Assembly (NCBI GenBank): GCA_013420905.1
Contig: JAAXNY010000007.1
Span: forward strand, 62,001 to 126,000
From: Collybia mongolica
Taxonomy: Eukaryota > Basidiomycota > Agaricomycetes > Agaricales > Clitocybaceae
Direction: 5' to 3'
DNA length: 64,000 nucleotides
The position numbers were made by a program, and so were the translations under genes. The notes under the pieces were generated by a model. It was not told where the DNA came from, did not search any database, and saw only the letters and a list, made by a program, of their open reading frames with translations. Of the stretch, positions 9,850 through 64,000 are shown piece after piece (the stretch's first letter is position 1; each line of letters opens with the position of its first letter).

Positions 9850-9997
9850 CACCAGCAGAGACCGCGACCTCACCGCAGCCATTGCCAAATTCCGATCGGC
9901 AGAAACTGTCAGCTCCGATACAGAATCCGTCAAGACCGCGCAAGAATCGCCCTCTCCACCCTCCTCCGAACTAGAAGTGGAACTCCTACTCCGGCCG

Positions 9998-11164
9998 ATG
10001 GACGCCGAAACGAGGATGGATAACATTGAACGAGACGTAGGAGATCTCAATAGGAAGGCGGAGGAACAAGCCGAGCAGCTTAAGAAGCTCACCGACAGCA
10101 TCAATGCGCTGATCGCGCTCCAAACCGCGGCTCCCCCACCCCCGGTCAATACCCCTGCACCCAGCGCCCCTGTAAATAATGTATCAACACCTCTTCCCGC
10201 GACCCACGTTAATTCGGGACGACCTTCGGCACTCCGGCCATCGCTTCCCGATGACTTCGACGGATCGCGCGAACGAGGGCGTGCGTTCATTAACACATGC
10301 GAACTGTATATAAATCTTGTACCACACCAGTTCGCGGATGAAGTGACGCAGGTACGGTGGGCGTACACCTTCATGAAGAAAGGCCGAGTGTATCTGTTCG
10401 CGGACCGGGCCATGCGATACCAGACCGCTACCGGGAACCCGAAGTACGCAACATGGGCCCTATTCCGCGCCGACTTCGCGGTCAACTTCTTCGTGCAGAG
10501 CAAAGCGCAGCGGGCGATTACGAGGTTGGAAACGAGCAGCTACCACCAAGGATCGCGATCGGTGGACGACTACACGGATGAGTTCAGGGATCTCATCGAC
10601 AAGTCGGGATACAAGGAGGGGTTGACAATTGTGGTGAAGTACCGGAAGGGACTGAGTGGGGAGATTCAGTCACAGATCGCGACGATGGCAGTGGGACGAC
10701 CAGTGGACGATCAGCCGGAACAGTGGTATGTAGCGGCGATGAAGTGCGATGAAAACCGCCTCACCAACGAGGCCTTCCTGAGCACTAAACCGGCGGCTCG
10801 CGCACCTCCCGCACGCACTACCTCGGCGTTTTGCGCACCGCCGCACTTCTCAGCCCCGACGCTGCAACGGATGGCGCCACCACCACCTCCGCCGCCCCCT
10901 GCTTTCCCTCCACCGGTTCCGATGGATGTAGACGCGATGCGGAGGGCTCGAACGAACATCGAGACCTGCCACCAATGTAAGCAGCCGGGCCATTTCCGGA
11001 AGGACTGCCCCCTCCGCTACGACACGCAGTTCATGTCAATGGAGGAGCAGCATGAGTTCGCGCAGCACATCTTCGCGATGATAGACGCACAAGTCGAACC
11101 GCCGGCGGAAGAAGGGGAAACATTCGCAACCACTCAAGAGGGTTTTGTAGCGGACAGCGAGTGA
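9998..11164 (+). CDS. gag: Gag
   Basis: The first ATG in this frame is at 9998 (MDAETRMDNIERDV). An N-terminal heptad-like coiled coil (about residues 5-45) is followed by a Pro-rich linker, a retrotransposon gag core, another Pro-rich stretch with a proline run, and one CCHC zinc knuckle (CHQCKQPGHFRKDC) near residue 335. It ends at TGA 11162-11164. It would form the virus-like particle and bind the element RNA. The frame is open upstream back to a TAG at 9839 without an ATG and reads like protein, so an upstream start, possibly by splicing within the LTR, is considered in the findings. Confidence 0.85.
   Translation: MDAETRMDNIERDVGDLNRKAEEQAEQLKKLTDSINALIALQTAAPPPPVNTPAPSAPVNNVSTPLPATHVNSGRPSALRPSLPDDFDGSRERGRAFINTCELYINLVPHQFADEVTQVRWAYTFMKKGRVYLFADRAMRYQTATGNPKYATWALFRADFAVNFFVQSKAQRAITRLETSSYHQGSRSVDDYTDEFRDLIDKSGYKEGLTIVVKYRKGLSGEIQSQIATMAVGRPVDDQPEQWYVAAMKCDENRLTNEAFLSTKPAARAPPARTTSAFCAPPHFSAPTLQRMAPPPPPPPPAFPPPVPMDVDAMRRARTNIETCHQCKQPGHFRKDCPLRYDTQFMSMEEQHEFAQHIFAMIDAQVEPPAEEGETFATTQEGFVADSE
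11140..11146 (+). promoter_or_regulatory. Candidate -1 frameshift heptamer at the gag-pol overlap
   Basis: G GGT TTT fits the X XXY YYZ slippery pattern in the gag frame. A -1 shift here enters the pol frame, which is open from this point to TGA 11311. No pol ATG precedes the protease motif: the codon before its VDSGAT is TTG. Fusion synthesis from gag is therefore expected. A downstream stimulating structure was not tested. Confidence 0.45.
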
Positions 11165-14100
11165 ACAGTACGCCCTCGCTGTCATCTGTAAATAGGTTTG
11201 CATGTTTAGAAGTTGAGAATACAACTGAAATTTCCCAAACACCCGAAACTACTACAGAAGCCGTACAAGATACCATCCCCGTCCCTAAACCGCTGCGCCA
11301 GAGACTCCCCTGATGGGAACGAGCTCTACCCAAGCGATTCGTAGTCGCCGCCACCCCCAGCACTCGCTCGCTGAAGCTCAAGATTGAACTTCAGACGACC
11401 AACACAGGCAAGACATTCGCGACGAACAGCTTGGTAGACTCGGGAGCAACGGGCCTTTTCATCGATTCTGAATTCGTGTGGAGGAACAGGTTGACCTCGC
11501 GCAAGCTAGTTTGCACTATTCCGGTGTTCAACGTCGACGGCACTCCGAACGAGAACGGGTCTATTTCGGAGATCGTAGACCTCATCCTCCGGTACAACGG
11601 TCACTCAGAACGCACCCACTTCGCGGTCACCAGCCTAGGGAAGCAGGATCTCATACTGGGCTACACTTGGTTGCAGGAGCACAACCCAGAGATCAACTGG
11701 CAGACCAACGAGGTGAAGATGAGTTGCTGTCCCGACAAATGTCGGACCTGCGCGAACGAGGTTAAATCGGAAAAGGCGGAGAAGCGTAAATTGGAGGCCC
11801 GCATCAACGCCTGTCGCGCAGGACCCATGCCCGAACCAGAAACAGAAATTGGAGAGGTTCCCGACTCTGAGCACGAAGGAGATATCGCCCTTGAAGATTG
11901 CATCGAAGAGGGCGACCGTATCTTCGTGGTCAACATCGGCGAACCAGGACAGTTTCAGAAGGCACCGGAAGAGATTCGGACAACCCAAACCATCTCGCAG
12001 CGACTAGCGGAAAAGATCCAAACGGAAGCCCGGAAGAACGCGTCCCAGCAGATCGCAGACTCCTTTGATCGTAATGCGCAACCCAAGACGTTTTTCAATC
12101 TAGCACCGGCGCACGTCCACGAATTTGAGGATGTGTTCTCCAAGACGTCCTTCGACGCTCTCCCAGATCGCCGACCGTGGGACCACGCGATCGAACTTGT
12201 CCGCGACGCAGAAGGGAAATCCTGCAAGGTCTACCCGCTCTCAGTCGCCGAACAAGCGGAGTTGGACAAGTTCCTCGAGGAGAACCTCGCCTCTGGTCGG
12301 ATCCGCCCCTCCAAATCGCCAATGGCTTCGCCGTTCTTCTTTATCAAGAAGAAGGACAGTTCGCTACGCCCGGTACAGGACTACCGCGTTCTCAATTCGC
12401 TGACGATCAAGAACAAATACCCACTCCCACTCATCTCCGACCTCGTCAACAATCTTCGGGGAGCGAAATACTTCTCCAAATTCGACGTTCGCTGGGGATA
12501 CAACAACGTCCAAATTAAGGAAGGTGATGAGTGGAAGGCCGCATTTCGCACAAACCGCGGAATGTTTGAGCCCCTGGTAATGTTCTTTGGTCTCACTAAC
12601 TTGCCGGCAACGTTCCAAACCATGATGAACGAGATATTCCACGATCTCATCATGGAAGGAGTGGTATGTGTCTACATCGATGATATTCTAATCTACACAA
12701 AGACACTCGCCGAACACCGCCGAATTACGAGGTTAGTTCTCCAGCAACTCCACGAACATAAACTGTACCTGCGACTGGACAAATGCGAATTCGAGAAGAC
12801 CCGAATCGAGTATCTGGGGCTCATTATCTCGGAGGGGCAGGCGGAGATGGACCCGGTCAAGGTTGCCGGAGTAGCGGAATGGCCAACGCCCACGAACAAG
12901 AAGCAAGTGCAGTCCTTCTTGGGCTTCACGAACTTCTATCGGCGGTTCATTCGCGACTTCTCCCATATTGCGCGGCCATTGTTTGATCTCACCGGTAAAG
13001 ACGTGCCTTGGAAGTGGGGTGAGTCGGAGCAGGAGGCATTCGAAGGGTTGAAGGAAGCGGTGTCGTCTAAACCGGTACTGATGTTCGCAGACGACAACCG
13101 GCCGTTTAGGGTGGAGGCAGATAGTTCGGATTTCGCGACCGGCGCAGTACTTTCGCAACTCAGCCCGGAGGACGACAAGTGGCACCCAATCGCGTTTTCG
13201 TCAAAGAGCCTCAACGCGGTCGAGCGGAATTACGAGATACACGACAAGGAAATGCTCGCCATCATTCGCGCACTCGAAGAATGGCGACACTTCCTTGAAG
13301 GCGCGCGACACGACTTCGAGATCTGGACAGACCACAAAAATCTAGAGTACTTCCGGACGTCCCAGAAGCTAAATCGGAGACAGGCCAGGTGGTCACTGTA
13401 CCTCTCCCGATTCAACTTCTCGCTGCACCACAAGCCCGGACGAAGTATGGGTAAGCCAGACGCGCTATCTCGCCAAGCGGACCACAGCGATGGAAGCGAG
13501 GATAACTGCGATCTAGTCCTCCTCAAACCGGAGTTGTTCACAATCCGCGCGCTGGAAGGAATGGTCGTGGAAGGAGAGGAAAGGGACATTCTGCGGGATA
13601 TTCGGAGAGGCAATCGCGAGGGACATCAGGAGGAAGCGGTGGTGAAGGCAGCGCAGGAGTTGAAGAAGTCCGCAGGAAAATCGGTTCGGAGCGCAGAGTG
13701 GAGGGAAGCGCAGGAGTTGCTGTATTTCCGCGATCGCATCTACGTCCCAAAACACGCTGACCTTCGCAGACGTATAGTTGCGCAACATCACGATTCGCGA
13801 ATTGCGGGACACGCCGGAAGATGGAAGACGTTGGAACTCGTATCGCGCAATTACTGGTGGCCTCAAATGTCGCGCTACATCGGCGAATACTGCAAGACAT
13901 GCGACCTCTGTCTCTGAACGAAGGCTCAGCGTCAACTTCCAAGCGGCGAACTTAAACCGCTGCCGATTCCGGAAGGTCGCTGGGACGTCGCAAGCGTGGA
14001 TTTCATCATGGAACTCCCCGAGTCGCAAGGGCATGATGCGATCATGGTAGTGGTGGACACGGTGGGTAAACGCGTGCACTTCATCCCAACCACGACGACA

Positions 14101-15111
14101 ATTACCGCGCTTGGATTGGCGAGGCTTTACCTCCAGCATGTGTGGAAGTTGCACAGCTTACCGAAGGCTATGGTCTCCGACCGAGGGGTACAGTTCGTGG
14201 CGGAATTCACAAGGGAGTTATATCGCATGCTTGATATTAAACTCACAGCGTCTACGGCGTACCACCCACAGACAGACGGACAGACCGAGCGAGTGAACCA
14301 GGAACTGGAGCAGTATCTCCGGTTATTCGTCAGCGAGCGACAGGACAACTGGGTCGACCTTTTACCGCTCGCTGAATTCCAGTACAATAACCACGTCCAC
14401 TCCTCGACACAGCACTCGCCGTTCTTCCTGGACACCAGTCGACATCCACGCATGGGCTTTGAACCACAGACCGCACCATCCCGGCTGGAAACCGCGAACG
14501 AATTCCGCGACCGAATGAAGGACACCCTCGAGGAAGCCTGCGCCGCATTAGCCAAAGCCAAGGACGAGATGGCGATGTACTACAATCGCCGCCGAAACCC
14601 AACACCCGACTACCAGGTTGGAGACCGGATGTATTTGGATTCGCGCGACATTCGTATCACTCGACCGTCGCAGAAACTGGCTCACCGCTACATCGGGCCC
14701 TACCCCATCGAAGCCAAGGTTGGATCGCACGCCTACCGCCTCAAACTTCTGCCGGCGCTATCGCGCATCCACCCGGTCTTCCATGTTGTCAAACTCCTAC
14801 CCGCACCACACAACCCAATACCCGGTAGAACGGTCACCAAAGTCCCTGAACCCACTCTCATAGACGGCGAGGTACATTATGAGGTTCAGGAGATCATGGA
14901 CAGCCGGGTTCACAGGAACAAGCTGCAGTACCTGATCGCCTGGAAGGGCTACAGCTACGAACAGAACACCTGGGAACCTGCCGACAAGGTGAATGCGGAC
15001 GAGTTGGTCGCCGAATTCTACAGACGCAACCCCGGAGCACCGCGACTCGTACAACGCGTCCAATTCGCACAGATCCTGTTCCAACGCCGGCGTGAAGACA
15101 CGCGAACCTAG
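11147..15111 (+). pseudogene. pol: Pol polyprotein (PR-RT-RH-INT-chromodomain), two in-frame TGA stops
   Basis: One continuous reading frame, interrupted only by TGA at 11311-11313 (between frameshift site and protease) and TGA at 13915-13917 (just after the integrase zinc finger). Visible in order: protease DSGATG (about 11437), RT with FFIKKKDSSLRPVQDYR and catalytic YIDD (about 12676), RNase H (EADSSDFATGAVL), integrase HHCC (HHDSRIAGHAG ... CKTCDLC), DDE core (VDFIMELPE, VSDRG, QELEQ), GPY/F (HRYIGPYPIEAKVG), and a chromodomain near the end (YLIAWKGYSYEQNTWEP). Frame phase on both sides of each TGA is identical and both sites read as CGA-to-TGA. The chromodomain would steer integration to modified histone tails. 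Stop at 15109-15111. Confidence 0.9.
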
Positions 15112-48932: not shown

Positions 48933-51900
48933 TTAGCAATGATGTGTGCGAGCTGAGTCTCCAAGTATGACAGTACTCAAGGATCTGGCTGAATAATCAA
49001 GCCGTGGTGCTTTATTAGATCTTGAAGGCTCATTTTCTTTTCCTCGACAACTAGGAGACCCCGGTGCTATGCACTTTTCTCCATGGATCCTGTTCGGGGT
49101 GGAGGAACTGAGAGGTAGAGGTGGTGGCCATTCAACAAGATTCTGCTCAGGAATACCCAGTGCTTTGTCTTCTGCTTGGGTAATCTGAATGCGAGTGAGG
49201 AAATCAGGAGTGATAAGTTGCCTCCATGAAGGGTGACACTTGCACAGATGCTGAGGGAAGTTATACTTCCAGTGAGTCTCGTTACACCCAAGAGAGCACA
49301 GAATAGGTGCGTTGGTACTTGGACACGTCTCCCAAAATATCAAAGCCACAGATATCTGGAAAGCATATGCTTGAGGGCAGTCAGAGTCTGCTTTTCCCCC
49401 TTTGATGCGTATCTGGCACCCATCTGTTGTAGGACCACCACATGTACCACATGGATATGAAGTGACCAGTGCAACCTGAAAGAATGAGTCAGTTATGATG
49501 CTATCATATGGGTTAGAAAAAGAGTATGCACTGGGCCTTTTGCAGAAATATCTACTACACCTTGCATTGCTTTCTGAAGATGCCCACCCATATGAATCTG
49601 ACAGTCCATGTCCTTTACTGGCTTGTGACAGATATGGCATGCTTGACGGTCAGTGTTTGATTGTGAAAGAGCCATACCAGCTATTGGGGAAGAATACATG
49701 AGCCCTTGAATGCTTAGAATGCTAAGTTTTAGTGTGGATTGTGGTTGTACAAGAGGATGAGTTACCTGGTGATGGTGCAACTTGGTAAGGATATTCACCT
49801 TTGAATACCCCAGTGAACTGCGGAATTTTAGTATAGAGTGTTGGGTCTGAAAGTAAGTGTTGCCAGAGCCAATTCCATGAAGAACGGAGGTGCTCATCTG
49901 AGAGAACCCATGTAGTCTCGCATGAATGGCTGAACAAAACGGAAAGGGCATCAGGCATTGTTGAGATGGGGACTTCTTTTGCATGCTGTTGTATTGGATC
50001 AATGAGTCTGCTTGTTATCAAAAACTGTAAGTTTTGTAAATGAGATACATTGTCTGAAGATGACTTGGAGTTCTTCTTTAATGAAAGTGAAACAAATTTG
50101 CCATTCCAGACCCATTCTAGTCTGCCATTTGACATTAATGGAAGAATGGAGAATACTTGACCATAGATCATATATGGGGAGGTTGGTAATTGAAGTTCTG
50201 CAAGGGGCACCGCCGAAACCAATGGGGACTTTGTGCCAGGTGGACCATGTTTGATCAGTGTGCATTTAATTATAGCAAGGCCAATGTGTGTCTGGTTGTA
50301 GCAAATGAGTGTCGCAAATAGATTTCCAAGTTGGAAGTGGGTCGACGACAATACACTCCTGCTATCAGGGCCCTGGTGAGTCCAAGACTTTCCTCCGATT
50401 GTAAATCCATGGATGCGCTGCAGGCAATCATGGCTACTATGATTATCATGGGTCATATCAAAGAGCATTTGTACGATGGCCTTTTTATGGGTAAGGTGGC
50501 CATCCACGTCAATTTCCGCAAATACGGAGATGGTTTCTGCTGATGCTAAGGCTACTTCATTCTGAGCCTTTTCCAGTGCAATCATTGAATCAAAATTGAT
50601 ATCGTGGATGGAATTATGAGCTTCTATATCGATTGTTGGTAGTACTGCCGATGAACTTGGGGAAAGGTTGGCCATAGAACGGTCAATTTCCACGGATATT
50701 GCAGGGTATTTACCACCAAATGGGCGGAGAAAATCTGTCTGGGGCTGCTTCCACCACTCTTCAAATGTCATTGGCAGTGTAACAGAAAATTTCTTCATGT
50801 CAGCCTCAGCACATTTTGCCCCTTCAGCCCAGCATCTCTTGATATTGCAACTTGATGTGACAACCTCAGATCGCCACAGTGATGGGTGGAAGTGGTCCAG
50901 ATTGCGGGAACAAATGAGTTTTAGCCGTTGTGGTTTCTTTTCTAGCTCTGCATGTTGATCATAAACATAGTCCAGATTCATTGCTGAGCTGAAGCGGTCA
51001 CAAAGTTCACCAACACTGCAGTTTGGAGAATGCCCGCCTATCATACGACAACGACCAAAAAGTGACTTGAGAACATCATCTCCGAGTAGACAAATGAAGA
51101 CCTCTAGTGACGAGTCAAGGACATGAGTTTTTGCTACCATAAAAACAGCATTCTTGACCATGGCCTGGAGATCGCCGTATAGTTGGTTGGGCATAAAGGA
51201 TGTGCCGTTATTGAGATACAGACCACATGTGAGGTGTGCAAATTTAACTAAGGAGATGAGTTGTTGTGAGAGCAAGAAATTGATATTGATAAATGGCTGA
51301 ACGAGGGCATCGAGTGCTTCTCCGAGAAGGCTCAGAGCTTCAATTTCAGCTGCTTCACTTGGATCAAGGAAGTTTTTGCCCAACTCTCCAATTTCAACAA
51401 TACACAGGAGGAGTCGAACTGCATGGGGAACATCTTGAGCATTGGATGGATCAAGGAGGGTGTGTATTGAGGTTTCAGACCAGTCATGAGCTGGCAGACA
51501 CTCAAACCACACAGCAAGGAGGTCATGATTGACACACACATGTTTCACGACCATGCTGTCCAACGAGCAGAGAAGGGTACATAATCCTTGTGTTTCCAAG
51601 TCAAAACAGGTTAGAGGCTGAGAAGAGGCGGAACTCACACTTGAACAGATGCTTGTAGTCAAAATCCATTGTGATATTATCATCACCCACTCTACAGTTG
51701 AGACCTCCGATTCCAGAGACCTGGGGAAAGAGCAAGTTGTCTGAAGAAACCCCACTGTGCATGCACATCATAAACAAGGCGGCACGCCGCGTCGCATCTC
51801 CGTCGGATGCAATTGAGAAGATAGGACCATGTTTCACCTCACCAAACTGTGATCGTTTCCATCCTTCCAGAACGACTGACATGTTTTGTAAGGAATCTTG

Positions 51901-59109: not shown

Positions 59110-60380
59110 ATGACCTTGTGAGGCTATTATGTATATTTTTTGGCCTGTTTTCATCCCCCTCTCCTCCTCCCTCCCTCAGGGGGACGGACCATGTGACTGC
59201 TTATGTAAGCTGCAGAAAATTTGGTTACCAAAAAACCTTCCCCTTCCAAATATGTTTTCTCATCAAAACAAAGCTTTCTGAAGCTTTTTCCATTTCAAAA
59301 ATTGCCATTGCAACACTTTGGGGGAAAATAAATGTTGGTAGTGGGTCATTTTAGTTAATATTGTTGGCCTCAAAGTTCAAATTCCAAAACAGATTAGTAA
59401 TGTTGAGGATGTGAGTGCTGATAACAATTGCTTCTGGGGAGTGGATGACTGGATTAGAGTTGATTGTTTATCACACTGTTGGACTCTATACTGATGATAC
59501 CAAGTGCACTGGGTAGTTGCTAGATGAGAGTGTTACTATCCCTATGTGTCCTCTAGGTTAGTATAGTTAAGAGGAGTCTTCAATCACCAAAGGACTAAGA
59601 AACTGGTGGCAGAATATGAGATACTGCACCAAGTCAGGCTTAGGTCAGAACATCAGTGGTTGGTCTTCAGTGGTTGGTGCTGATTGGCCCTTCACACTAG
59701 ATAGGCAAACTGTTGCTAATGCAGCTCAAAGCAAGGTGTGGACAAGAGCAGTGCAAAGTTGGAACATGCACTACTTATGTGTGGTGCAATGCCTTTTGGC
59801 TTCTAGAACAGTGCAAAAGTGCAAGAAAAGTGCATCTCCAGACTGAAGTTGGAGCATGATGATATGGCCTGAAATTGTTTGCACTTGTAAAGTTAACAAG
59901 TAAGGCTATTAGTATCATTTCTAATAACCAAGTAAATGGTAATAAAGGATTAGAGTTGAGCTTCAAGACAGCTAATCAGAGTGAACTAGTCTGATGATAA
60001 ACACACTGTGAGTACAGACTATTATTAGTTCTATTCACCATGCCTGGTTACAACCTTGGTATCTTAACAATAAGTAACTATTGTAGTATGACATCATTAG
60101 TCTGGGGATCATCATTAATAGGAGAAGTAATTGTAAATTCAGGACTTGCATGACCCAAGGCCAGTGTCAGGGTGACCCTAAGTTGAAGTGTGTGCAATCA
60201 CAAGTCAGCCAACTTCTGACTGATAGAGGAAATCCTAAGTATATCATTATAAGTACAAGTCCAGACTACTCACCTGATAGGAGAAATCCTTAGAGATCAA
60301 TCTAAGGAATCCCCTACCAAGTGGTGGCTACTATATACCTATCTTAGTGCCTATGGTGAGGAACGAACCAAAGCGGTCGG
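59110..60380. other. AT-rich intergenic DNA
   Basis: No coding domain. Two similar motifs CTGATAGAGGAAATCCTA (60224-60241) and CTGATAGGAGAAATCCTTA (60280-60298) lie about 55 bp apart. The second is followed by a perfect hairpin, CCTTAGA and TCTAAGG with a 6-nt loop (60293-60312). Confidence 0.5.
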
Positions 60381-60386
60381 GACTTA

Positions 60387-60446
60387 AGCGGATTTCGCCC
60401 TTGCGAAGGGGCTCATCAGAGGGCTTTACCGCTGCCCTAATCCGCT
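60387..60446 (-). ncRNA. Hammerhead ribozyme, type III
   Basis: Reading the minus strand from 60446: stem III 5' arm AGCGGAU, cleavage nucleotide U (60439), stem I AGGGC with loop AGCGGUAAA and GCCCU, core CUGAUGA (60419-60413), stem II GCCC with loop CUUCGCAA and GGGC, core GAAA (60396-60393), stem III 3' arm UCCGCU. Every conserved core base is present, stem I has 5 pairs, stem II 4 and stem III 7 counting the A15.1-U16.1 pair. Predicted cleavage is between 60439 and 60438, after an AUU triplet. Stems I and II are closed and stem III is open, which defines type III. Such ribozymes process circular or multimeric RNAs in retrozymes and viroid-like RNAs. The host transcript here is unknown. 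Confidence 0.85.
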
Positions 60447-60449
60447 GGC

Positions 60450-61350
60450 CATCTTTGACAGGTACAGACTACCTAGCTTAGGTTACTGAGTGGGAGTATG
60501 GTCACATGGCAGGACATGTGATTATTAGCGCTAGGGCAGGACCGTGGCACTAGGACCCAGAGCAGGTAGGTATTACATTTGGGTTATAGTCAGGGGCGCC
60601 TCCCTCATGATCCGGTACTCCTGATGAGCGGCCGGACGACTACAGTGCGTAGTTGCATACCACAACTTTGCGTCTGTCTGTCTGTTTGTTTCACAAGTAG
60701 ACTACTTTGAGCATCCAGTCCGGCCGTCCCCGAAGGTAAGGTAGAAAGAACGCTAAAGTCTATACAATGCCACTATGTACTGCTATTGTTGCCACATGTC
60801 TCAAGGTCAAACAATAGGGTCAGTAATACAACAGGTATATTCATGTGATGGGCTGACATGATTTCAACAAGCAGCATGCATATTAGCATGGTTGTTTGCC
60901 ATGCAATCAGTTGATGGTACAAGTTTCAACATGTGGTGATGGTCTTTGATCAGTGGTAGCAACATTGCTGTGGACAGTGATCCCCTTACAGCCAGAGCCT
61001 AGTCAGGGGTGCTTGGTGTTAACTACTGGAAAGATGGAACACTGTAAAATGACAACCAGAATGATCAAGAGAAGTAAAAGACAGTGCTGCACAGTTTAGA
61101 AATAACCAAGCACACTGCCAAGCATTGATAAGAGTTTAGCCAGATCTCTTGATATTGGCCAAGTAATAAGTGATGATATAAGTGGCATGAATGGCATGCA
61201 CACCGAGTTGTAGAAGACAAGTCAGCATTAAAACACAAGCCCTTAGCACAGGGGGGTCTTGTTCCACATAAAATTATCATTCTTTATAACATTAATTTGT
61301 ACACTATAAATACACCATATACACCATAGATAGGTAGTGCTATGTATGTA
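60450..61350. other. Intergenic DNA right of the ribozyme
   Basis: No coding domain. Contains a second CTGATGA (60621-60627, plus strand) at the base of a 10-bp stem (60628-60637 with 60718-60727), and a TCTG run at 60673-60684. Confidence 0.5.
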
Positions 61351-61890
61351 TAGTGGTGTGGCACTTTTCCTGGCATGTCTCCATGGACTTTGTTATGGCT
61401 ACCTCAAGTAAACCAATTACTCTCACAGGCATCCCCCCTATCCACCTTCATGTTAAGAAGTTGGTGGAAAGGAGTCATGTCCGCTCTTCAGGCCTCACAC
61501 ATTTTTTGTTGCCTCATCAATGGGAACCACAAATTCTCTGCCCACAACCCAAGCCGTAGGCTTGGGAAACTTGTATCGCCTGTTGTAGAGGCCTGGGCTA
61601 ACCTTGGCCTCTCATCCCTGGATCTGGACCCCGTCCACCCACTCAATCAACCGGGCATGCGCCCCAGGGACCTGTTCCCTGATTGCATAGTCTATGATAT
61701 AGTCACCCCCCCACCTAAGGGCAGTGATCACTGCAAGGATTTCATGAAAGACCGCATCACAGTGCTGAAGAGCATCATCAATGAGGCCTCTCACTCCCCA
61801 TGGAGCATTTGCATCATCACTGATGCATCCACTCCCGCTCCTCCCATGCAGTCAGTCGTGGTCTACCACATATGGCATGCTGGGGACCTA

Positions 61891-62103
61891 CAGTGGCTCA
61901 AAAAACTGCCCCAATGTTTGTACATTTTTGAAAGATCAATATGGTATGAAGTGCTGACATAAGCAGGGGACCTGGGGTAATTATGTAAGATACTATGACA
62001 TCGTGGCTTTCCAATGGACCCTGGATCATGTGATTTGGATCAATATCCATTAAGCTATAAGCCAAACAAAATGGTTACTTATTGGGGCAGTTTTTTGACC
62101 CTT
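61891..62103 (+). repeat. Left terminal inverted repeat of the Tc1 element
   Basis: The outer end carries TCAAAAAACTGCCCCAAT and the inner end (about 62081-62098) carries the same 18-mer inverted, so the repeat is itself a fold-back unit. Confidence 0.9.
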
Positions 62104-62251
62104 ATCTTATTTTCCATTATTCTGGCATTTATGATCCAATGCAAGAACATTATGGACTGTGGGAAGAATAAACAATGTCATGTGACTTTATTTGTATCAA
62201 TTTGACATGTTGGAATTGGTTCAATCATCTTCTTGACCTCTTACCACCATC

Positions 62252-63271
62252 ATGAAAGCCATTTCTACTGCTCAGCACAATACTGTTGTTTCTCTCCTCA
62301 ATGAGGGCTATTCTCAGCGTCAAATCAAGGAGAAAACTGGTCTAGGGAAGGGTACCATCAGTAGGATCAGCAAAGATGTGGATGGAAACAAAGAAAACAA
62401 CCTTGGTGGCCGCCCCTCCAAGCTGTCTGTTCGTGACAAACAGTAAATTATTCGTCAAATCAAGTCAGGGAAGCTTGATAATGCAGTTCAGGCTACCCAA
62501 TTCATCAATGGCATCATCCCCAATCCTGTCACACCCCAGACAGTCAGAAATGCACTCAAGGAAAATCAATTTTATGCTGCTACAAAGAGGAAAGCTCCTC
62601 TTCTCAAACGAGCCCATCGCATCCGGCGTCTCCAGTTTGCAAAATATCATGAAAGCTGGACTGTGGAGGACTGGAAAAGGGTTCTATGGACAGATGAGAC
62701 CAAAATCAATAGGATTGGGTCAGATGGAAAGGTTTATGTCTGGAAACAAAGGGGAGAACCACCATCTGATAGAACAACATCACCTACTGTCAAACATGGA
62801 GGAGGAGGAAACCTCATGGTATGGGGTTGTATGGGGTGGAATGGAGTGGGAAAGCTCATAGAGGTGCAGGGGAACATGGACAAGGTTCAATACTGTGAAA
62901 TTTTGGAGAGTGGAGTTCAGGAAAGTTTTGAGAAGTTGGAAATGGTGGATGGCGAGCGCTACTTTCAGCAAGATAACGACCCCAAACACACATCTGGACT
63001 GGCCACACAGTGGTTTGAAGACAACAACATTCAAGTCCTTGGCTGGCCTGCCCAATCCCCTGACATGAATCCAATAGAACACCTTTGGGAACATCTCAAG
63101 CGCCGTCTTAAAGAATATCCGACACCACCCAAAGGAGTACATGAGTTGTGGGATAGATTGGCTGAAGAGTGGGGTGAAATTCCACCAGAGGTATGCCAAA
63201 ACCTGATAGAAAGTATGCCCAGGCGGATACAAGCAGTTATAAAGGCAAAAGGTGGTCATACAAAGTATTAG
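62252..63271 (+). pseudogene. Tc1-family transposase, one in-frame TAA
   Basis: ATG 62252. N-terminal paired-type HTH (VVSLLNEGYSQRQIKEKTGL), GRPSKLS linker, TAA at 62444-62446, then the second HTH, nuclear and catalytic parts in the same frame to TAG 63269-63271. The catalytic set is visible: WTDETKIN (first Asp), QQDNDPKHTS (second Asp) and MNPIEHLWEHLK (Glu), with 34 residues between the last two, the Tc1 signature. About 339 codons, normal length for the family. The stop separates the first DNA-binding helix from the rest, so an intact enzyme is not expected from this copy. Confidence 0.9.
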
Positions 63272-63285
63272 ATAGAAAATTAATA

Positions 63286-63498
63286 AAGGGTCAAAAAACT
63301 GCCCCAATGAGTAATCATTTTGTTTGGCCTATAGCTTAATGGGTTTTGATCCAAATCACATGATCCAGGGTCCATTGGAAAGCCACGATGTCATAGTATC
63401 TTACATAATTACCCCAGGTCCCCTGCTTATGTCAGCACTTCATACCATATTGATCTTTCAAAAATGTACAAACATTGGGGCAGTTTTTTGAGCCACTG
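63286..63498 (-). repeat. Right terminal inverted repeat of the Tc1 element
   Basis: Reverse complement of the left repeat with five differences, all in the inner 60 bp. It contains the 18-mer at both ends, as on the left. Confidence 0.9.
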
Positions 63499-64000
63499 TA
63501 TATGAGGACTGGTATGCTACTGGCCTCTCTACGTCTGATGACGCCAAGCTGCGAGCCATTGCGGAAGGCATCCGACAGGCAGCTGACATTGGACTAGAGG
63601 ACATTCATGATGTCCACATCTTCTCTGACTCCACCAACACCCTTAGGCATTCCCTCGACACGTCTCACCACTCAGGTCAAGCATCCGCCCTCAAAGTGTG
63701 TGAGGTGTTGCTGCCTTGGCTGCAGCTCCATGCCATCCACAAGATTCACCTCCACCACATTACAAATGGAGTGGAGATTGAAGACCACCAACTGGCACAT
63801 ATCAGCGCCATCTTGACTCGCATTGAGGCAGGTGGAGCGCCAGTTATATCTGCTGATTTTGCACGACGTGAAGCAGTCACATGCATGCTTGACGGCTGGA
63901 AGTCTCTCTTCCAATCCAAGAAGTACATTGGCTCCAATTTCCTGATGCTCTATGTGAAAAAGGACACCCCACTCACCCCGACCCATGTAAACAATGGGCC

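Follow-up and report, generated by a model that had tools for sequence, protein, structure and literature searches.

A family of small non-coding insertions carrying a conserved type III hammerhead ribozyme in the genome of Collybia mongolica

Introduction

Small genomic units that carry hammerhead ribozymes have been described in plants and animals. In plants, LTR retrozymes contain a hammerhead in each of two LTRs of 300-400 bp, together with a tRNA-Met primer site, a polypurine tract and 4-bp target-site duplications (PMC4918200). In metazoan non-LTR retrozymes, the hammerheads are of type I and lie in tandem repeats (PMC7229834). For fungi, Perreault et al. reported the first hammerheads in 2011, in interspersed repeats of Yarrowia lipolytica (PMC3088659), and a 2016 survey of Pleurotus ostreatus gives five Hammerhead_3 hits (PMC5040776), so the presence of hammerheads in fungal chromosomes is already published. 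Fungal viroid-like RNAs and ambiviruses are replicating circular RNAs, some with a ribozyme in each strand, and the size range given for subviral circles is about 200-1800 nt (PMC10162972).

Here, we describe a hammerhead in a stretch of 64,000 nucleotides of Collybia mongolica (contig JAAXNY010000007.1, positions 62,001 to 126,000), which is referred to in full as the window. The original prediction, made from the letters of the window, had suggested that this ribozyme might occupy a new setting, a suggestion that is overtaken by the earlier reports of fungal chromosomal hammerheads (PMC3088659, PMC5040776).

Results

Anatomy and detection of the hammerhead

The ribozyme lies on the minus strand, and was examined by a base-by-base reading of core and stems.

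60387..60446, minus strand: type III hammerhead ribozyme, identified from its core and stems, a strict descriptor and Rfam scores

In minus-strand order, stem III is formed by 60446-60441 paired with 60392-60387 (6 bp), and is followed by U16.1 (60440), which pairs with A15.1 (60393), and by U17 at the cleavage site (60439). Stem I (60438-60434 with 60424-60420, 5 bp) closes the loop AGCGGTAAA, the CTGATGA core occupies 60419-60413, stem II (60412-60409 with 60400-60397, 4 bp) closes the loop CTTCGCAA, and GAAA is located at 60396-60393. The cleavage triplet is AUU, with a predicted cut between 60439 and 60438. This reading agrees with the original prediction in core bases, the three stems, strand, triplet and predicted cut position, and the combination of CUGAUGA, GAAA, an NUH triplet and three stems, of which stem III is open, is that of a type III hammerhead.

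The strict descriptor asks for CTGATGA followed by G, for GAAA and for NUH, and sets a minimum of 4 bp for each stem, that of stem III being counted beyond the U16.1-A15.1 pair. It matched once in the window, exactly at 60446-60387 on the minus strand, and gave no match on either strand of 60 Mb of dinucleotide-Markov random sequence, which upholds the claim that this fungal chromosome contains a hammerhead of type III in complete form. The Rfam covariance check that had been proposed gave a divided answer. At the gathering score of 48.5 bits, RF00008 had no match in the window, nor in the genome (E up to 0.001). Below this score the hammerhead of the window was matched, with 24.3 bits in a local search (E 0.0038, 251 bases searched) and with 28.2 bits genome-wide (E 0.013). 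The genome-wide search covered 46 Mb, scored 68 of its 8130 candidates and gave 5 matches at E<=10, among which the hammerhead of the window ranked first. The best four of these five matches are members of one repeat family, and the fifth, weak match (L080) is without CTGATGA. The predicted folding energy of the hammerhead is not exceptional (z -0.82), so the case for it rests on its core, its conservation and its copies. A genome search with one exact hammerhead pattern returned 10 matches, four of them family members; none of the other six scored with a model built from the family, which would miss distant hammerheads. Two of the exact-pattern matches, L048 and L049, were rejected as hammerheads, stem II being absent as judged by eye. 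The random-sequence control and the existence of four genomic relatives rule out a chance motif and, judged by core and stems, 60446-60387 (minus strand) is a real hammerhead of type III.

The hammerhead lies in a delimited insert

The carrier was delimited by searching the 46-Mb genome of the window with 60900-60000 (minus strand). Positions 60759-60344 proved to be missing from other genomic copies of the surrounding repeat, which gave the following features.

60344..60759, minus strand: whole non-coding mobile element of 416 bp, 5' ACTTTAGCG ... 3' GGCACTAA, absent from other copies of the host repeat; this window copy of the element is called W
60760..60900, minus strand: left part of the older, split repeat, from comparison with other repeat copies
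60165..60343, minus strand: right part of the older, split repeat; 12 of 13 fetched copies read across without an insert
60344..60348, minus strand: short A-rich 3' tail of W, ACTAA, from the empty-site comparison

The right part of the host repeat has 14 other matches, 13 of which were fetched; the left part is directly joined to it in the 12 copies that read across, and the thirteenth (L009) is without the left part. The empty junction is GT[A/G]TAG joined to G[A/T]TA[G/A]G, and the window reads GTATAG, ACTTTAGCG...GGCACTAA, GATAGG. The right end of W was set at the cut that needs neither duplication nor substitution compared with the empty copies. No ORF of at least 80 aa overlapping W was found. 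A separate repeat of ~164 bp (window 60005-60168), which has many genomic copies with a best identity of 93%, directly adjoins the repeat that is split by the element.

Five copies in the genome

Searching the genome with the W insert alone yielded four relatives, all on other contigs (5 of 5 candidates scored), and a search with the relative L032/L036 found the same five places and no others (5 of 5 scored). The relatives measure 448 bp (L036), 453 bp (L037), 448 bp (L038) and 447 bp (L039), and each has the hammerhead at the matching place. The genome-wide search for further copies of the motif, advised with the original prediction, modifies two of the earlier claims: that there is no second complete copy holds within the window and fails for the genome, and the view of the ribozyme as a solo or loose remnant gives way to a 416-bp insert with four relatives.

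L036, L037, L038 and L039 are mutually 94-98% identical, and 60-64% identical to W over 404-405 aligned columns, in an alignment for which W was cut one base short. All four begin with TCTTTG and none is 5'-truncated; a 5' TC is present in four of the five copies. As cut here, the relatives end with GTTAGC followed by CAA (L036, L037), ACA (L038) or AAA (L039), the tail lengths of L037 and L038 not being fixed by an empty site, and the 3' ends across the family read AGCCAA, AGCACA, AGCAAA and CACTAA. Each of the five places has one unit match, i.e. only monomers were found, and none of the five copies, taken together with ~200 bp of flank to the left and right, contains a direct repeat of at least 20 bp. 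Two copies, L038 (1485-1932) and L039 (1485-1931), are depleted in CpG (8 and 1, respectively) and stand beside copies of the same family with normal counts (23 in L036, 23 in L037, 21 in W). This loss fits methylation followed by deamination, and suggests methylation-driven decay of some insertions.

No target-site duplication at the three readable sites

Empty sites are readable for three copies, W, L039 and L036, and in each the element was inserted exactly, with no target bases duplicated or lost. The host of L039 is a multi-copy repeat, of which all five fetched empty copies read gccttt or accttt joined to aattcac, and the L039 insert, TCTTTG...GTTAGCAAA, is situated exactly between the empty-copy halves. 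Among the 36 matches listed for the left part of this host repeat (best 40 of 488 candidates scored), 32 abut the right part exactly, and on direct reading the sequence of the remaining four likewise proceeds as GCCTTTAAT. For L036, the empty sites are two paralogues of 81% identity and, with the CAA tail, the target length with and without the insert is equal in both, from which we infer that this insertion was exact as well. For W, the reading without substitution gives no target-site duplication, and a 2-3-bp duplication combined with one substitution may be an alternative. The flanks of L037 and L038 have no other genomic matches, hence no readable empty site. Target-site duplications, 4-bp ones included, were therefore found at none of the three readable sites, where the junctions are G/G, T/A and G/T. 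Target-site duplications are expected with LTR integrases and are usual for LINE machinery. The element was rejected as the solo LTR of a retrozyme because a solo LTR should keep its target-site duplication, and none was seen at the three sites.

Insertion with neither duplication nor loss of the target at three of three sites would also be in keeping with movement at the DNA level, by a non-autonomous transposon, either Helitron-like or moved by a recombinase, that happens to carry a conserved RNA motif. The 5' TC in four of the five copies, and a 5-bp hairpin recognized by eye near the 3' end of the four relatives, point in the same direction. Helitrons insert between A and T and have a 3' CTRR. 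The family shows no CTRR 3' end and no constant site between A and T, its 3' tails vary, and the hairpin is not kept in W. There are also no evident terminal inverted repeats, the best local score between the 40-nt ends being 5-6 (no shuffled control). A DNA transposon, which moreover leaves unexplained that the ribozyme is the best-kept segment, is in our estimation rather unlikely.

The ribozyme is the best-kept part of the element

When W was compared with L036, 56 of 60 columns matched in the hammerhead and 201 of 404 in the rest of the element, with gaps counted as misses and one of the four hammerhead misses being a gap in both (Fisher p 1.3e-11, to be taken as a guide since columns are not independent events). 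Segments of hammerhead size scored as high in 2 of 405 cases, the hammerhead itself included. The hammerhead is thus far better kept than the rest of the element, which, at the level of sequence comparison, points to selection on the ribozyme. W and L036 share an identical loop II and have loops I that differ by a single inserted base; the distance from the predicted cleavage site to the 3' end is 95 nt in W and 96 nt in L036. The core is intact in W, L036 and L038, the last of which is changed in both loops and in stem III. The other two of the five ribozymes are damaged, by an extra A beside the cleavage site in L037 and by a change of G12 to A in L039.

The low copy number (five found), the occurrence of monomers only, the blunt, traceless insertion and the split into two lineages (60-64% identity) that differ least in the ribozyme would also be compatible with the capture by chromosomes of an episomal hammerhead replicon, a small viroid-like or satellite RNA of fungi that was occasionally reverse transcribed and ligated into chromosome breaks, the genomic copies being dead ends. 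Viroid-like elements and ambivirus circular RNAs with ribozymes do occur in fungi (PMC10162972, PMC13343976). However, the five copies end at matching places, whereas a randomly opened circle should give permuted copies, and the ends of the element differ from the ribozyme cleavage site. In addition, the opposite strand revealed no second ribozyme by Rfam (L036 and W, linear), and no hammerhead in a scan of all five circularized copies. An ambisense hammerhead was rejected: where copies have CTGATGAG on the opposite strand, as some do, it is not followed by a GAA together with a stem II longer than 1 bp. Viral contigs contained no match to two hammerhead patterns, which detect near-exact relatives only, and a pattern search of bacterial and archaeal genomes was likewise without match. 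Capture of a viroid-like RNA is, in view of both sides, an explanation that we consider unlikely.

Folding and a possible masking arm

All five copies contain, at the matching place, an exact complement of part of the ribozyme core.

60621..60628, minus strand: CTCATCAG, complementary without mismatch to the core CTGATGAG and kept in position in all five copies

When the pairing of CTCATCAG was forced, the masked fold was calculated to be 2.5-4.4 kcal/mol better than the hammerhead fold for both W and L036, as linear and as circular RNA (no shuffled control). For the full-length RNA of W and L036, the best predicted fold is a third one, neither masked nor hammerhead, and in isolated pieces of 60-62 nt of both the three hammerhead stems are the best predicted fold. 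We regard CTCATCAG as a possible ribozyme-masking arm, and as a lead only. A reading that includes this arm takes the five copies as chromosomal fossils of a fungal hammerhead RNA replicon, and the family as one of endogenous viroid-like elements, with full-length monomers made by reverse transcription from a fixed start on the circle, traceless insertion, and a core masked by the conserved complementary arm; we judge it quite unlikely to be correct. The consensus fold of the whole element comprises 14 of 119 pairs with two-sided changes and, given its unfavorable covariation term (+1.7), we make no claim of a global element structure. At E<=10, RF00008 was the sole ribozyme family found by Rfam in L036 and W, and snoRNA, sRNA and microRNA models were dismissed, with scores far below their cut-offs.

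The B-box-like motif GTTC[G/A]ACTC occurs in L036 and L037, as GTTCGACTC beginning 23 nt from the 3' end, and in L039, as GTTCAACTC, and is not found in L038 or W. Together with the short A-rich tails, this motif could indicate a SINE type with a tRNA-like 3' end, mobilized by a LINE, the hammerhead of which would trim the transcript. SINEs have their internal Pol III promoter close to the 5' end, and their insertion duplicates the target site. Here, the tRNA-like part is at the 3' end and not at the 5' end, the B-box-like match is limited to three of the five copies, and none of the three readable sites has a target-site duplication. ARAGORN detected no tRNA in the five loci, which also disposes of the element as a tRNA gene. 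With as many as 3 mismatches allowed, the terminal 26 nt on the 3' side were found in the genome in the four relatives only, and the idea of a piece shared with a host tRNA was dropped. Schistosome hammerhead repeats do carry a full tRNA-Gln (PMC4918200), and for the present family we consider a SINE origin very unlikely.

Other features of the window

A Tc1/mariner-like element is present at 61889-63500. Its ORF 62663-63271 has a DDE_3 domain and lies between two inverted repeats of 229 bp (61889-62117 and 63272-63500; 96% complementary), with a shorter inverted repeat inside each arm. An ORF of 677 aa (49722-51755) has no Pfam match and is perhaps a transposase; it has 95 relatives, many of them in Agaricomycetes with several per genus, of which a few are named for C2H2 domains. 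The named relatives listed for two window proteins are mostly from Agaricomycetes (Lyophyllum, Mycena, Pleurotus, Favolaschia).

Discussion

The best explanation, to which we assign about an even chance of being right, is that W and its relatives form a family of non-coding, non-autonomous elements of 416-453 bp with a conserved type III hammerhead, which spread through RNA. The unit, its ends, the five copies, the traceless insertion of three of them and the strong conservation of the ribozyme are directly supported. For the passage through RNA, which would involve a circle and borrowed enzymes, we infer the following series of steps. The element transcript would be cut by its own hammerhead, and the cut RNA would be closed into a circle, probably by a host RNA ligase. 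A borrowed reverse transcriptase would then copy the circle once around from a fixed start, and the full-length cDNA would be joined into a chromosome break, so that the target is not duplicated. An RNA route is proposed because the constant 5' end, the short and variable A-rich 3' tail, and the hammerhead inside each copy fit it. Since only monomers were found, a single genomic copy cannot be cut twice to release a unit-length RNA in the manner of retrozymes, and therefore a multimer or a circular template must be assumed. Several observations speak against the RNA route: target-site duplications are absent at all three readable sites, the B-box-like GTTCGACTC is not in W or L038, and two of the five ribozymes are damaged. 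Moreover, the hammerhead is absent from the predicted minimum-energy fold of full-length W and L036.

The window also contains a Ty3/gypsy element of the Tf2 type with three ORFs (9977-15111), a possible source of reverse transcriptase. The three ORFs encode a gag with a zinc knuckle, a set of reverse transcriptase, RNase H and integrase zinc-binding domains plus a protease match below threshold and, in the third ORF, a Tf2-type SH3 and chromodomain with a sub-threshold match to the integrase core.

For plants and animals, circular RNAs that carry ribozymes have been described as mobile elements, and in the cited reports, as far as their text is at hand, fungal chromosomal hammerheads come without a carrier of defined ends. 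The present family supplies ends, empty sites and two diverged lineages, which makes movement of the unit directly testable, and likewise the entry of fungal viroid-like RNAs into chromosomes. Among the titles and abstract openings listed from a mostly open-access literature, none describes such an element.

With the hammerheads of Yarrowia and Pleurotus, the family shares its location in a fungal chromosome and, for Pleurotus, type 3; it differs in that the available text of those reports describes no carrier ends, empty sites or mode of insertion, a comparison by description and not by sequence. Fungal viroid-like RNAs and ambiviruses are likewise ribozyme-bearing RNAs in fungi, and the unit of the W family is within their published size range, but the family is made up of chromosomal DNA, its ends are constant, and a single ribozyme was found in the unit. 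Metazoan non-LTR retrozymes resemble it in being small, without LTR and with a hammerhead, whereas the W family is of type III and occurs as single copies. Plant LTR retrozymes also have a small non-coding unit with a type III hammerhead that is dispersed in the nuclear genome, but the W family has one hammerhead, no LTR and, unlike LTR-type retrozymes, no target-site duplication. The original prediction of a retrozyme-like or circular-RNA locus is therefore borne out in that the hammerhead marks a mobile, possibly circular-RNA-producing element, and not in the plant-type features of LTRs, paired ribozymes and target-site duplications (0 of 3). By analogy, although it fails tested features of both described retrozyme groups, the element would be retrozyme-like in function, as a small mobile non-coding unit with a conserved hammerhead.
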